Assembly: GCA_902810735.1 (NCBI GenBank) | Contig: CADDYX010000008.1 | Location: forward strand, 1 to 32,086 | Reading direction: 5' to 3' | Length of the DNA: 32,086 nucleotides | DNA from: Verrucomicrobiota bacterium | GTDB taxonomy: Bacteria; Verrucomicrobiota; Verrucomicrobiia; Chthoniobacterales; UBA10450 | Shown here: piece after piece, positions 8,467-21,904 of the stretch | Numbering within the stretch: the stretch's first letter is position 1 | Layout: each line of letters begins with the position of its first letter | Made by a program: the position numbers and the translations under genes | The notes under the pieces: model-generated | What the model was told of the DNA's origin: nothing | Databases searched by the model: none | The model's input: the letters and a program-made list of their open reading frames with translations, nothing else

Positions 8467-8973
8467 ATGAAATTAACTAATTCACATAAACTAGGAATCG
8501 CGGCGGCATGTTGCCTCGCCGTCGCTTCAGTCATTGCGGCCCCGGGCAGCGGGGGCGGTCGTGCAGGCGGCACCGGCACGGCCGGCGGTTCCAGAGCGGG
8601 TACCGGATCGGGAGGCAACTCCTCGTTCGGACAGTCGCAGGCCGGCAATCCTACGACAGGTTCACAGAATTCGAGCTACGGCCGCAACACAGCGCAGCAG
8701 GCGCAACAGCAGGGGACGAAAAACACGCAGAACAACAAGTCCGATAAACAGAAGTCGAAGCAAAAGACACACGCGAGCCCAACGCCGCGGACGAGTCCGA
8801 CACCTCGAACGAGTGCGACGCCGCGCACGAGTCCAACGCCGCGGACGAGTCCAACGCCGCGCACAAGTCCGACGCCTCGGACGAGTCCAACGCCGCGCAC
8901 GAGCCCGACGCCTCGGACCAGCCCGACACCTCGGACGAGTCCGACGCCGCGAACCAGCGCGACTCCTCACTAA
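8467..8973 (+). CDS. secreted low-complexity protein with SPTPRT hexapeptide repeats
   Basis: A 168-residue exported protein without a known domain. Seen: a signal peptide (about 1-25, ending VIAA), a Gly/Ser/Thr-rich stretch (27-72), a Gln/Asn/Lys-rich stretch (73-102), then ten SPTPRT-type hexapeptides and a final SATPH (104-168). The repeated DNA is 18-bp units at 8776-8970. Units differ almost only at third codon positions, so the peptide rather than the DNA seems conserved; two units read SATPRT or SATPH. The region is very basic and probably extended, so it could bind polyanions, the cell surface or be a substrate for modification of Thr/Ser. It has a strong ribosome-binding site upstream and a strong terminator downstream, so it is a monocistronic and probably abundant product. 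Confidence 0.85.
8776..8970 (+). repeat. 18-bp coding tandem repeat
   Basis: About ten and a half units of the form AGYCCRACRCCKCGRACN, each encoding SPTPRT. Variation is concentrated at synonymous sites. The repeat is in frame, so copy-number change would lengthen or shorten the protein without a frameshift. Confidence 0.9.
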
Positions 8974-12870: not shown

Positions 12871-13319
12871 ACAGCAAAGCCAAAGCGGCGGTTCTGGCAT
12901 TTTCCTTTGCGCTTTGCGCAGCGTCGGCACTGATCACCCACGTCGCGCGGGTGCGAATGCCCGCGCCGGCTCCGCGCGAGCTCTATGCAGTGGTTAACCG
13001 GCAGATCGCGGCGTTCCGATCGGGCGATTTCCCGAGCGCCTATCGATATGCCGCCACTGGTGTGCAGCAGAAATTCACGCTCGCGCAGTTCGCCGCGATG
13101 ATCCGCCGCGATTATCCGGAGCTGGCCCGCGCGCGCGACATCGAGTTCGGCCAGGTCCACACCCGCGGCGCATCAGCTGTTGTTCAGGTGTTTTTCAGCG
13201 GCAGAGACAAGCTCTCGCATTCCGTCTTCTACAATCTCGTGGCCGAAAACGGCGTCTGGAAAATCGCCGGCGCCGACGAAATCAGGACCGCTCGGCCGCG
13301 CCAGTTCATTCACGCTTAG
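12867..13319 (+). CDS. DUF4864-like exported or anchored protein
   Basis: A 150-residue protein with one N-terminal hydrophobic segment (about residues 7-27), either a signal peptide or an anchor. The rest resembles DUF4864: VNRQIAAFRSGDFPSAYRYA, FAAMIRRDYPELARARDIEF, and a closing beta-rich VYFxLVxENGxWKIAGA-type pattern. The function of this family is unknown; the fold is likely NTF2-like. Its stop codon overlaps the stop of the convergent manA gene: plus-strand TAG (13317-13319) and minus-strand TAA (13316-13318) share two bases. Confidence 0.75.
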   Translation: MNSKAKAAVLAFSFALCAASALITHVARVRMPAPAPRELYAVVNRQIAAFRSGDFPSAYRYAATGVQQKFTLAQFAAMIRRDYPELARARDIEFGQVHTRGASAVVQVFFSGRDKLSHSVFYNLVAENGVWKIAGADEIRTARPRQFIHA

Positions 13320-14254
13320 CGCGGTGCGCCGCTCGTCACACGCAGCAGCTCGGTGTTGCGTTCAAGCGGCTGCACAAGTGCGGAGTTAAGCGCGGCTGGC
13401 AGCAGCGCAAAGTTGCCAGGCGTCAGCTGCACGCCCCCGCATTCCACGCTTCCCGAGACGCAGCAGATGATCGCGAACCGGCCCCGGGCGGCAGCGTCGC
13501 GCGGCCTGTCGATCTTCCACTTCTCGACGTGAAACAGCTCGTGCCGGACGAGCGATTCGCCCTCCGGTTCGGCAAGCGAAGGCCGCACGTCGTTGAAATC
13601 GATGCAGCGAAGTGATTGCTCAACGTGCAGCTCGCGCTCGTTCCGGTTCCAGTCGAAAACGCGGTAGGTCGTATCGCTGTTCTGCTGGATCTCGACGATC
13701 ACGTTTCCCGCGCCGATCGCATGCACGCGCCCGCTCGGCAGAAACATGGCGTCGCCCGTTTTGACGCCGATCCGATGCACGTGTTCATGCACATCGCCTC
13801 GCTGAATCGCATCGGCGAAGTGCGTCTCCGAGGAGGCGCCCGCAAGTCCGACATACAGCTCGGCCGCCGGGGCGGCTTCCGCGATGTACCAGAACTCCGT
13901 CTTCGGTTCGCCCCCAAGCTCCGCCGCCGCGTCCGCCGGCGGATGCACTTGCACCGAGAGTTTTTCCTGCGCATCCAGTAGCTTAATCAGCAACGGAAAC
14001 CGCGGCGCGTCGGGCAGATCGCCGAAGATTTCTCCGCGTCGTTTCGTCCACAGGTCGTGTAGTGTTTCGCCGCGGAGCGGGCCGGCATGGACGACGCTCT
14101 GCGCTTCGGCACGATCGACAATCTCCCATGACTCGCCGATTCGCACGCCAGCCGGAAGGCGTTTCCCAAACAGTGATTCGAGCCTGCGGCCGCCCCAGAC
14201 ACGCTCCATAAAAATGGGTTCGAAAACGAGCGGCTGTGAGAGTACGGCGAGCAT
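13316..14254 (-). CDS. manA: mannose-6-phosphate isomerase, class I type
   Basis: A zinc-dependent phosphomannose isomerase converting fructose-6-phosphate and mannose-6-phosphate, supplying GDP-mannose synthesis or mannose catabolism. It has 312 residues, the short bacterial class I form. Seen: FEPIFMERVWGGRRL at the N-terminus, KLLDAQEKLSVQVHPP with Gln102 and His104, EPKTEFWYI with Glu120, SGRVHAIG with His178, and the catalytic Arg198 in TYRVFDWNR. All four zinc ligands are present. ATG 14254 matches the usual family start. It is divergent from the MFS sugar-porter-like gene across a 101-nt gap filled by a heptamer inverted repeat, so shared regulation is possible. Confidence 0.95.
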   Translation of the reverse strand: MLAVLSQPLVFEPIFMERVWGGRRLESLFGKRLPAGVRIGESWEIVDRAEAQSVVHAGPLRGETLHDLWTKRRGEIFGDLPDAPRFPLLIKLLDAQEKLSVQVHPPADAAAELGGEPKTEFWYIAEAAPAAELYVGLAGASSETHFADAIQRGDVHEHVHRIGVKTGDAMFLPSGRVHAIGAGNVIVEIQQNSDTTYRVFDWNRNERELHVEQSLRCIDFNDVRPSLAEPEGESLVRHELFHVEKWKIDRPRDAAARGRFAIICCVSGSVECGGVQLTPGNFALLPAALNSALVQPLERNTELLRVTSGAPR

Positions 14255-14267
14255 TCGGAATGAGAAA

Positions 14268-14350
14268 GCAAACGTTCAACGTGCAACGTCCAACGTGCAA
14301 TCCTGCTGCGTTCGGCGTTGGACGTTGAGCGTTGAACGTTGGACGTTTGC
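14268..14350. repeat. heptamer (AACGNNC) inverted repeat filling the manA-MFS gap
   Basis: The left arm has four consecutive 7-nt units AACGTTC, AACGTGC, AACGTCC, AACGTGC. The right arm, read on the other strand, has AACGTCC, AACGTTC, AACGCTC, AACGTCC, AACGCC. The two arms can form a long imperfect hairpin with a loop of about 18 nt. The element ends 5 nt before the MFS ATG and begins 13 nt from the manA ATG, so the promoters or the mRNA leaders of both genes must overlap it. Comparable heptamer runs are, as far as I recall, dispersed in verrucomicrobial genomes. Confidence 0.85.
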
Positions 14351-14355
14351 CGCCC

Positions 14356-15789
14356 ATGAACGCCGGCACGTGGATTCAGACGCACATTCCAGCTCGGCTG
14401 GATCGGCTGCCATGGCATCGCTGGCATTGGCTGATCGTGGCGGCGCTGGGCGCGACCTGGATTCTCGACGGTCTTGAAGTCACGCTCGCCGGAGCGGTCG
14501 GCGGAATGCTGACGCGCCACGATACGCTCGCGTTCACTGACGCGCAGGTCGGCGCGACCGCGACTTTTTACCTGATCGGCGCTGTCATTGGTGCGTTGCT
14601 ATTCGGCTATGCGACCGACCGGTTTGGACGCAAGCGTCTCTTTTTTGTGACGGTCACCGTTTATCTGGTCGGCACGGCGCTGACCGCTTTATCGTGGAAT
14701 TTCGCGAGCTATGCGATCTTCCGCGCGATCACTGGCGCAGGGATCGGGGGTGAATACGCGGCGGTGAACTCGGCCATCGACGAGCTGATTCCAGCGCGCG
14801 TTCGCGGGCGGGTGGACTTGACGATCAACGGTTCGTATTGGGTCGGCGCCGCAACCGCGTCCGCCGCAGGAGTCCTCGTGCTCAATCCCGCGCACGTCGC
14901 GCCGTGGCTCGGCTGGCGTCTTGTGTTCCTAATTGGGGCAACGCTGGGACTGATCGTGATCTTCTTTCGCCGCTGGATCCCGGAGAGCCCGCGGTGGCTG
15001 ATGATTCACGGCCGGCCGGAAGCAGCGGAGCAGATTGTTGCCGAGGTGGAAACGATGATCGGCATCGGGTCGGGCGCAACTGAGCTGGTCGACGCCGAGG
15101 CGACACACATCTGCATGCGCAGCCATACCCCTTGGTCGCAGATCTGGAATGCAATCGCACACGAGCATCGCCGTCGCTCAGTACTCGCATTCGTGTTGAT
15201 GATCTCGCAGGCGTTTTTCTACAACGCGATCTTCTTCACCTACGCGCTCGTCCTGATGCGCTTCTACGGTGTGCCGCCGGAGCGCGCCAGCAGCTATCTG
15301 TTGCCATTCGCGATCGGCAACGTTCTCGGACCGCTGTTGATCGGACGACTCTTCGATACGATCGGACGGAAGCCGATGATCGTGGCGACCTACGCGATCT
15401 CGGGAATCCTGCTCGCGCTTACCGGTGCACTGTTTCGCGCGGGGCTGTTGAATGCGCAGACGCAAACGATTGCCTGGACGGCGATCTTCTTCGTTGCTTC
15501 CGCCGCTGCCAGTTCCGCCTATCTCACGGTGAGCGAAATTTTCCCGCTGGAGATTCGCGCTCTCGCCATCGCGATCTTCTACTCGATCGGCACCTTCGCT
15601 GGTGGAGTGTTCGCGCCGCTGCTTTTCGGCGTGCTGATTGGCACCGGCTCGGCGAATGCGCTGTTCATCGGCTATCTCGTGGGCGCTAGCCTGATGATTA
15701 TTGCAGCCGGATTCGAAGCATGGATCGGCGTCGCTGCCGAGCGACGACCGCTCGAAGAAATTGCCGTGCCGCTCTCGAGCCGTCGGTGA
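14356..15789 (+). CDS. MFS transporter, sugar-porter-like
   Basis: A major facilitator superfamily secondary transporter of 477 residues with 12 predicted membrane helices. Seen: the MFS signature DRFGRKR in the loop after helix 2, GAGIGGEYAAVN in helix 4, the sugar-porter-type PESPRWL at the end of helix 6, a central cytoplasmic loop, and GRKPMI in the second half. TM1 contains LDGLEVTLAG with charged Asp and Glu, typical of proton-coupled metabolite:H+ symporters. The substrate is unknown; a sugar or organic acid is likely, and divergence from manA favours a sugar. ATG 14356 is chosen because upstream codons (from 14332) lie in the heptamer repeat. Confidence 0.9.
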   Translation: MNAGTWIQTHIPARLDRLPWHRWHWLIVAALGATWILDGLEVTLAGAVGGMLTRHDTLAFTDAQVGATATFYLIGAVIGALLFGYATDRFGRKRLFFVTVTVYLVGTALTALSWNFASYAIFRAITGAGIGGEYAAVNSAIDELIPARVRGRVDLTINGSYWVGAATASAAGVLVLNPAHVAPWLGWRLVFLIGATLGLIVIFFRRWIPESPRWLMIHGRPEAAEQIVAEVETMIGIGSGATELVDAEATHICMRSHTPWSQIWNAIAHEHRRRSVLAFVLMISQAFFYNAIFFTYALVLMRFYGVPPERASSYLLPFAIGNVLGPLLIGRLFDTIGRKPMIVATYAISGILLALTGALFRAGLLNAQTQTIAWTAIFFVASAAASSAYLTVSEIFPLEIRALAIAIFYSIGTFAGGVFAPLLFGVLIGTGSANALFIGYLVGASLMIIAAGFEAWIGVAAERRPLEEIAVPLSSRR

Positions 15790-17057: not shown

Positions 17058-17131
17058 GGGCCTGTAGCTCAGCTGGTTAGAGCATGCGCTTGATAAGCGC
17101 AGGGTCAAAGGTTCAAATCCTTTCAGGCCCA
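17058..17131 (+). tRNA. tRNA-Ile (anticodon GAT)
   Basis: A 74-nt cloverleaf. Acceptor stem GGGCCTG/CAGGCCC, D-arm GCTCAGCTGGTTAGAGC, anticodon stem TGCGC/GCGCA with loop TTGATAA (anticodon GAT at 17092-17094), T-arm AAAGG/CCTTT with loop TTCAAAT. The discriminator is A and CCA is not encoded. It lies between protein genes: 14 nt after the Mut7-C gene and 9 nt before the GTG start of an M16 peptidase gene. In most bacteria this tRNA sits in the 16S-23S spacer. Confidence 0.97.
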
Positions 17132-17140
17132 CACCTCTTC

Positions 17141-20018: not shown

Positions 20019-20091
20019 TGGAGGCAAGGGGATTCGAACCCCTGACTTCCAGCTTGCAAAGCTGGCGCTCTACCAACTGAGCTATGCCCCC
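20019..20091 (-). tRNA. tRNA-Ala (anticodon TGC)
   Basis: A 73-nt cloverleaf on the minus strand. Acceptor GGGGGCA/TGCCTCC (one G-U pair), D-arm GCTCAGTTGGTAGAGC, anticodon stem CCAGC/GCTGG with loop TTTGCAA (anticodon TGC, plus-strand 20056-20058), T-arm AGGGG/CCCCT with loop TTCGAAT. The discriminator is A and CCA is not encoded. It follows the 16S gene on the same strand, 252 nt away, but beyond an intrinsic terminator. What follows it is a convergent protein gene, not 23S rRNA. A promoter of its own in the 44 nt between terminator and tRNA could not be identified with confidence. Confidence 0.97.
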
Positions 20092-20132
20092 GGAAGAATT
20101 TCGAATGTCGATTGCCGACGTCCGATTGCAAC

Positions 20133-20165
20133 AAAAAAGCCGGACAGCATCAGCCGTCCGGCTTT
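20133..20165 (-). terminator. intrinsic terminator between 16S rRNA and tRNA-Ala
   Basis: On the minus strand, a 10-bp stem AAAGCCGGAC/GTCCGGCTTT (plus-strand 20136-20145 with 20156-20165) with a 10-nt loop is followed by further T residues (six T in a row in total, the first three within the stem). Orientation is right for stopping transcription that comes out of the 16S gene. It lies about 180 nt past the 16S 3' end and 42 nt before tRNA-Ala. Confidence 0.85.

Positions 20166-21904
<1,739 letters not shown>

Follow-up and report, generated by a model that had tools for sequence, protein, structure and literature searches.

An inverted array of AACGNNC heptamers between manA and an MFS transporter gene, a probable copy of a dispersed palindromic element in a family of Verrucomicrobiota

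Although heptamer repeats were reported to be over-represented in many bacterial genomes, their role, in the passages of that report covered here, is still to be found (PMC4692102). GGGAATC in Xanthomonas and GGGGA(C/T)T in Nostoc form intergenic arrays in which four units are commonest, and arrays of GGGAATC, with about 185 repeats per Xanthomonas genome, often occur as inverted pairs close together (70 cases in Xcc and 75 in Xac) (PMC4692102). Another heptamer, TAACTGA, occurs in Beggiatoaceae, Cyanobacteria and Bacteroidetes as mostly intergenic sets of two to six units in the main genome (PMC4679880). In a literature search on the unit strings described below, on heptamer repeats of Verrucomicrobia, on palindromes of Chthoniobacterales and on inverted heptamers, nothing among the results listed concerned the present element, which is no proof of absence.

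The window analyzed here is a stretch of 32,086 nt (contig CADDYX010000008.1) from a Verrucomicrobiota bacterium. Its genes manA and MFS diverge from a 101-nt gap (the manA ATG ends at 14254 on the minus strand and the MFS ATG lies at 14356 on the plus strand), for which an earlier note had claimed an inverted array of AACGNNC heptamers over about 83 nt. This description was borne out, far above chance: an inverted repeat covers 83 nt at 14268-14350, with 33-nt arms that are 85% complementary and a 17-nt centre Table 1, and TRF delimits period-7 arrays at 14271-14300 and 14316-14347. The pattern AACGNNCAACGNNC has six matches in the 32-kb window, all of them inside this array, compared to a mean of 0.26 and a maximum of two in 100 dinucleotide shuffles of the window. 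As the note held, the array occupies the space where promoters or leaders of the two genes would lie; it takes 83 of the 101 nt. Matches to manA are present in 50 of the 61 family genomes (the host's own counted). Close orthologs of the MFS protein, complete or partial and 69-79% identical to it, occur in 34 of the 60 family genomes other than the host's, and genome G021 has an additional fragment. Read from 14332, the MFS ORF scores 153.8 bits against the Pfam profile Sugar_tr and 105.7 bits against MFS_1. Position 14332, within the array, is a TTG in frame that is an alternative start codon, but the ATG at 14356 is likelier: when the protein is started there, its 30 full-length alignments with orthologs begin at residues 1-5.

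Table 1. Features of the gap between manA and the MFS gene and of its flanking genes (positions in the window)
Feature	Position	Strand	Remark
manA, class I mannose-6-phosphate isomerase	13316..14254	-	NCBIfam TIGR00218, 136.7 bits (cut-off 116.2); start 13 nt from array
Spacer, manA start to array	14255..14267		13 nt
Left arm	14268..14300	+	GCA, AACGTTC, AACGTGC, AACGTCC, AACGTGC, AA
Palindrome centre	14301..14317		Right part carries on the right-arm units imperfectly
Right arm	14318..14350	-	Minus-strand GCA, AACGTCC, AACGTTC, AACGCTC, AACGTCC, AA
Spacer, array to MFS start codon	14351..14355		5 nt
MFS transporter gene	14356..15789	+	Sugar porter / aromatic acid symporter superfamily

According to the sequence comparisons, this array is most probably a copy of a palindromic element that is dispersed in the host's bacterial family (probably Chthoniobacterales). 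Related arrays were found in 20 places on 20 contigs of the host's own assembly (3.01 Mb, 310 contigs). The common form of the element is GCA-(AACGYYC)n-core-(GRRCGTT)n-TGC, where n ranges from about two to six; ten inverted copies delimited in the host genome span 70 to 102 nt, end triplets excluded, and one-arm arrays also exist (for example at loci L040, L043, L050 and L053). The pattern AACGNNCAACGNNCAACG occurs in 34 of the 58 genomes searched, namely 31 of 37 from the same family and three of 21 from outside it, compared to 0-2 matches per genome for a reversed-pattern control, and the inverted form of the element is present in 28 of the 61 family genomes. Of 32 elements, 18 have CAGA or TCTG in their core; shuffling the cores gives 5.5 such elements on average and at most 14 in 2000 runs. 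Among the ten elements of the host genome, however, only three have it. Two arrays located at contig ends (C51 and C139) are 92% identical over 194 nt and carry four versus five units; this one pair, which could be paralogs or one locus in two haplotypes, suggests that the arrays change by whole units. Arrays of AACGNNC are also found across phyla (at least 119 stretches). Among the matches listed, 12 of 119 show both orientations within 160 nt, three of these with the core, and only 292 of 642 units follow the pyrimidine rule described below; since the rule is absent there and few arrays are inverted, most of these are probably unrelated heptamer arrays.

The array has the features of an intergenic heptamer repeat: a period of seven, several units, a dispersed distribution and a mostly intergenic location. 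Like GGGAATC arrays, it occurs in inverted pairs, varies between relatives and adjoins genes that share no function, but GGGAATC and GGGGA(C/T)T are G-rich and quadruplex-forming, and the known arrays lie nearer to the 5′ neighbouring ORF and are rare between divergent genes (8% and 7%); no replacement of promoter gaps in orthologs is reported for GGGAATC arrays in the passages covered (PMC4692102). The run of at least three G per unit that marks these repeats is absent from the units of the window (AACGTTC, AACGTGC, AACGTCC and AACGCTC) and from their complements; of the four units common in the family, a GGG in the complement is found for AACGCCC alone, which makes up 13 of the 187 units. 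Sets of TAACTGA resemble the element in being oriented toward gene starts, at a distance of a few nt, at genes with few Shine-Dalgarno sites and with no pattern of gene function; in contrast, they are direct arrays of one fixed unit with one inverted case in 170 sets, without palindrome of core and ends in the parts of the report covered (PMC4679880), and the unit is different (AACGYYC here). The ATCTTTC repeats of the Haemophilus influenzae hmw1A promoter also have a 7-bp unit; they are placed between promoter and gene and change by whole units, but form a long direct array at one type of locus, involved in adhesin phase variation, in the passages considered (PMC8262952). Likewise, REP elements are dispersed intergenic palindromes, but they are described, in the part of the source covered, as 20-40 bp long, tagged by an unpaired GTAG or CGTC and located mainly downstream of coding regions (PMC3733652), whereas the array extends over 83 nt and its end triplets are paired. 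The inverted GGGAATC arrays of Xanthomonas and the TAACTGA arrays of Beggiatoaceae are thus its closest known relatives. Overall, the element differs from them by its unit, its palindromic form, in which the ends are paired and the core often carries a motif, the many sister units found in one family and the filling of orthologous promoter gaps.

Comparison of the units and of the arms indicates which part of the element is conserved. Of 187 units from 29 of the 32 elements (L064, L391 and L404 were left out), 178 have a pyrimidine at each of the two free positions, so that the unit is AACGYYC. In the same 29 elements, the two arms of an element match no better than arms taken from different elements (617 matches compared to a permuted mean of 619, p 0.62). 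As the arms do not co-vary, the constraint seems to bear on the heptamer unit and not on the pairing. The copy of the window includes two AACGTGC units that go against the pyrimidine rule and lacks the core motif CAGA/TCTG. Its two strands fold far better than shuffles (z of -5.7 and -5.3 as RNA, -6.3 as DNA), and the end triplets GCA/TGC are paired in the fold of the plus strand. The cruciform proposed by the earlier note is therefore physically possible as DNA, against which stands the lack of co-variation between arms. No Rfam family matches the array at gathering score, the only matches in the window being 16S rRNA and two tRNAs. A scan for sigma-70-like sites found none in or near the array, and hence no canonical sigma-70 promoter inside it, but it was equally blank at the array-free ortholog gap and so carries no weight either way.

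Orthologous gaps reveal how arrays relate to the sequences found at the same place in relatives. In genome G068, the only array-free gap available for this comparison, manA and the MFS gene diverge from 98 nt without array, versus 101 nt in the window. An inverted array was seen by eye in none of the 29 other loci within 170 nt upstream of manA, where the upstream neighbour mostly differs. Joint insertion of the MFS gene and the array was dropped as an explanation because the divergent pair is array-free in G068 and because G021 has the decayed remnant of an MFS gene next to manA. G071 also carries the pair (L428, G071:C44), but there the manA match begins only at residue 24; a complete manA would run into the start of the divergent MFS gene, which suggests a lost manA 5′ end or a lost gap, and this gap was left unused. 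The second case is the gap between usp and coaD, which are divergent with a measurable gap at 48 of 50 loci (L109 and L117 lack a usable gap). The gap is filled by an array in three genomes only, from three genera (the host's own, G028 and G060; 114, 122 and 124 nt), two gaps (L128 and L316) are intermediate and belong to neither class, and the other 43 have a median of 140 nt. The motif TTCGGCAA, with one mismatch allowed, is present in 37 of these 43 gaps and in none of the three array-filled ones, and a second motif near the coaD start is present in 18 of 43 and again in none of the three. At both manA-MFS and usp-coaD, the array thus occupies the place taken in orthologs by ordinary promoter or leader sequence, without lengthening the gap. 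This modifies the proposal of the earlier note that the repeat landed in a promoter region: the location stands, but, in two orthologous gaps, the array takes the place of ordinary sequence at about the same length. By contrast, at a third gap, mreB-rpe, the gaps with arrays are long; the array sits towards rpe while the mreB side is still recognisable, and some array-free gaps measure only 112 to 141 nt. Next to the rpe start, genomes of one genus carry AACG heptamers (G018, G070), GATTCAC heptamers (G032) or ATTACTCC-like octamers (G025, G059). In G061 and G034, the array is located between a TATATAT stretch, also found in array-free relatives and likely a promoter, and the rpe start.

The position of arrays relative to genes was assessed with gene calls from our own codon model, which are imprecise at starts, and with element borders set by hand within a few nt. 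Among the 20 arrays of the host genome, 13 lie in gaps, five inside or overlapping called genes (L040, L049, L051, L054 and L056) and two at contig ends. Ten of the 13 gap arrays adjoin a start codon within 8 nt, compared to 5.4-5.5 expected for random positions in the same gaps (p about 0.0005), and the excess is also found in gaps with at least 80 nt of free space (five of seven arrays, 0.6 expected); stop codons show no excess in this genome (two, compared to 1.9 expected). In other genomes, seven of 16 gap elements lie within 8 nt of a start (4.4 expected, p 0.04) and ten within 15 nt (5.8 expected, p 0.001 to 0.003). After removal of three loci with called gaps over 1 kb, these values fall to five of 13 within 8 nt (4.3 expected, p 0.41) and seven of 13 within 15 nt (5.7 expected, p 0.24); therefore, the start excess holds for the host genome only. 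Arrays are thus not scattered at random with respect to genes in the host genome, an outcome that the earlier note had named as refuting its proposal, but their proximity to starts elsewhere is not robust. With L040 counted as lying in a gap, nine of 14 gap arrays of the host lie between divergent genes, in gaps that hold 28% of non-coding DNA; divergent gaps are not enriched in six other genomes (seven of 21 arrays). Some arrays occur in tandem gaps, where a promoter is not required, and the genes that adjoin arrays have unrelated functions. Concerning arrays within genes, half-element arrays are found inside ORFs that by eye encode a metal-binding-type protein (L049:2436-2485) and a DNA ligase D-like protein (L051:3134-3174), and an array at the start of a prepilin-like gene (L056:717-757, contig C200) has heptamers that appear translated as a leader (MKQTFNLQRSTFNVETRQAFTLIELLV).

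A Shine-Dalgarno tetramer stands ahead of 12.4% of the 531 ATG genes whose upstream gap is at least 60 nt long, and of 7.1% of 56 such genes in the host genome, where the loci counted are biased to array neighbourhoods, compared to a background of 6.6% across six sampled genomes plus the host's own; the 16S rRNA end retains CCTCC. As this usage is near background, there is little that an array could disrupt. Leaderless transcription was not supported: no peak of TATAAT-like hexamers was found near the 531 starts, whose calls are imprecise.

The seven-base step extends beyond the AACGYYC unit. Among tandem repeats in the non-coding DNA of six genomes (196 kb), period 7 is over-represented, with 25 arrays compared to 12 of period 15 (eight of them in one genome) and at most seven for any other period that is not a multiple of 7; in one list of period-7 arrays, two of the 23 rows are runs of N and were dropped. 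Among 267 family loci, 35 of the 41 inverted array pairs with periods 6-9 have period 7; widening the range to periods 4-14 gives 47 pairs, of which 35 have period 7 and five have period 14. Three shuffled locus sets gave one inverted pair in total. In eleven of these 35 pairs the unit lacks AACG, and such units are of about ten different kinds; the share of AACG is inflated since the presence of AACG arrays was the reason for choosing many of the loci.

Two readings of these data are put forward as equally likely. The first, which we hold tentatively and at somewhat less than an even chance, is that a dispersed heptamer element fills the gap and serves as an outward-facing 5′ regulatory or leader sequence of the flanking genes. 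The arms face outward as (GRRCGTT)n-TTGC, followed by the start codon usually within 2-13 nt, so that each diverging gene has the same type of sequence ahead of its start. At manA-MFS and usp-coaD, the element stands where orthologs have ordinary promoter or leader DNA; it would most likely have this regulatory or leader role for the genes on either side, and the constraint on the unit would be explained most simply if a protein or the transcription or translation machinery read it. Promoter or leader activity, like such a reader of the unit, is what we infer from this arrangement. The regulatory array with 7-nt periodicity suggested by the earlier note is thus possible, and is the reading put forward here. 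Against it stand a start excess limited to the host genome, the lack of a sigma-70-like site (although none was found at the array-free ortholog either), arrays located in genes or tandem gaps beside genes of unrelated functions, the lack of enrichment of divergent gaps in six other genomes and the deviations of the window's own copy from core motif and pyrimidine rule; furthermore, the comparison of gaps involves three array-filled coaD gaps and one array-free manA-MFS gap. The other reading is neutral or selfish spread: heptamer palindromes would arise and spread by slippage, recombination or a mobilising enzyme and persist where harmless, bases next to starts being tolerated given the scarce use of Shine-Dalgarno sites and promoters being located upstream of the array or inside the neighbour gene. 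This would account for arrays in tandem gaps or overlapping genes, for the many unrelated units that share one architecture, for the difference in unit number between two contig ends, for a start-side excess that is not robust beyond the host genome and for the rpe array of G061 and G034, which lies downstream of a likely promoter shared with array-free relatives; it fits less well with abutment of starts but not stops in the host genome, even where at least 80 nt are free, with divergent gaps filled at about constant length and with the pyrimidine constraint at variable positions.

A functional hairpin, whether a DNA cruciform or an RNA leader hairpin that would control transcription, translation or mRNA stability, appears unlikely: despite the strong folding of both strands, a hairpin kept by compensating changes is unsupported, same-element arms matching no better than arms of different elements, and several arrays have one arm. 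Even less probable is that the array is REP-like and mobilised by the family's Y1_Tnp tyrosine transposases (RAYTs). Such transposases have matches in 59 of the 61 family genomes and their number is weakly correlated with AACG pattern counts (rho 0.34, p 0.04, 37 genomes), a rank correlation that ignores genome size, completeness and relatedness; but the four Y1_Tnp loci of the host (L058-L061, 2.7-3.3 kb each) contain no cluster of at least three units, the palindrome with GTAG beside one of these matches (L061:1870-1970, contig C7) differs from the array, and the array is devoid of unpaired GTAG or CGTC tag and longer than 20-40 bp. Mobilisation by RAYTs was therefore rejected, on the weak correlation and the lack of arrays at the host's own Y1_Tnp genes. 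A broader scheme, which we consider doubtful, is a family-wide process that would build inverted arrays with a seven-base step from almost any unit, spread one or few unit types per lineage and overwrite promoter or leader regions of ordinary and essential genes, each lineage having its own reader and unit and reader turning over together.

The host family thus has inverted heptamer arrays of many units, some of which lie at the same orthologous starts and which in a few gaps take the place of conserved promoter-region sequence. Therefore, comparison of close relatives offers a test of how the seven-base step arose and of what it does to gene expression. If the arrays carry the promoter or leader function tentatively proposed above, they would offer a route for parallel re-wiring of ordinary genes.

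Other repeats and gene arrangements were observed besides this element. Two 91-nt divergent gaps (L042:535-625 and L044:346-436) hold a palindrome of another family, CGAG..AAGTCGAGGAACCC ... CTCGACT, which resembles one found at mreB-rpe in genus g4; palindromes other than the AACGYYC element thus also fill entire divergent gaps. The GTAG-type palindrome at L061 fills the divergent gap beside the Y1_Tnp match and is REP-RAYT-like. The window itself includes, at 8774-8951, a tandem repeat of 18/54 nt with about ten 18-nt copies in an open frame. Its rRNA genes look unlinked: 16S rRNA is followed by tRNA-Ala at 20019-21903 with no 23S rRNA match in the window, and tRNA-Ile lies apart on the opposite strand (17058-17132).
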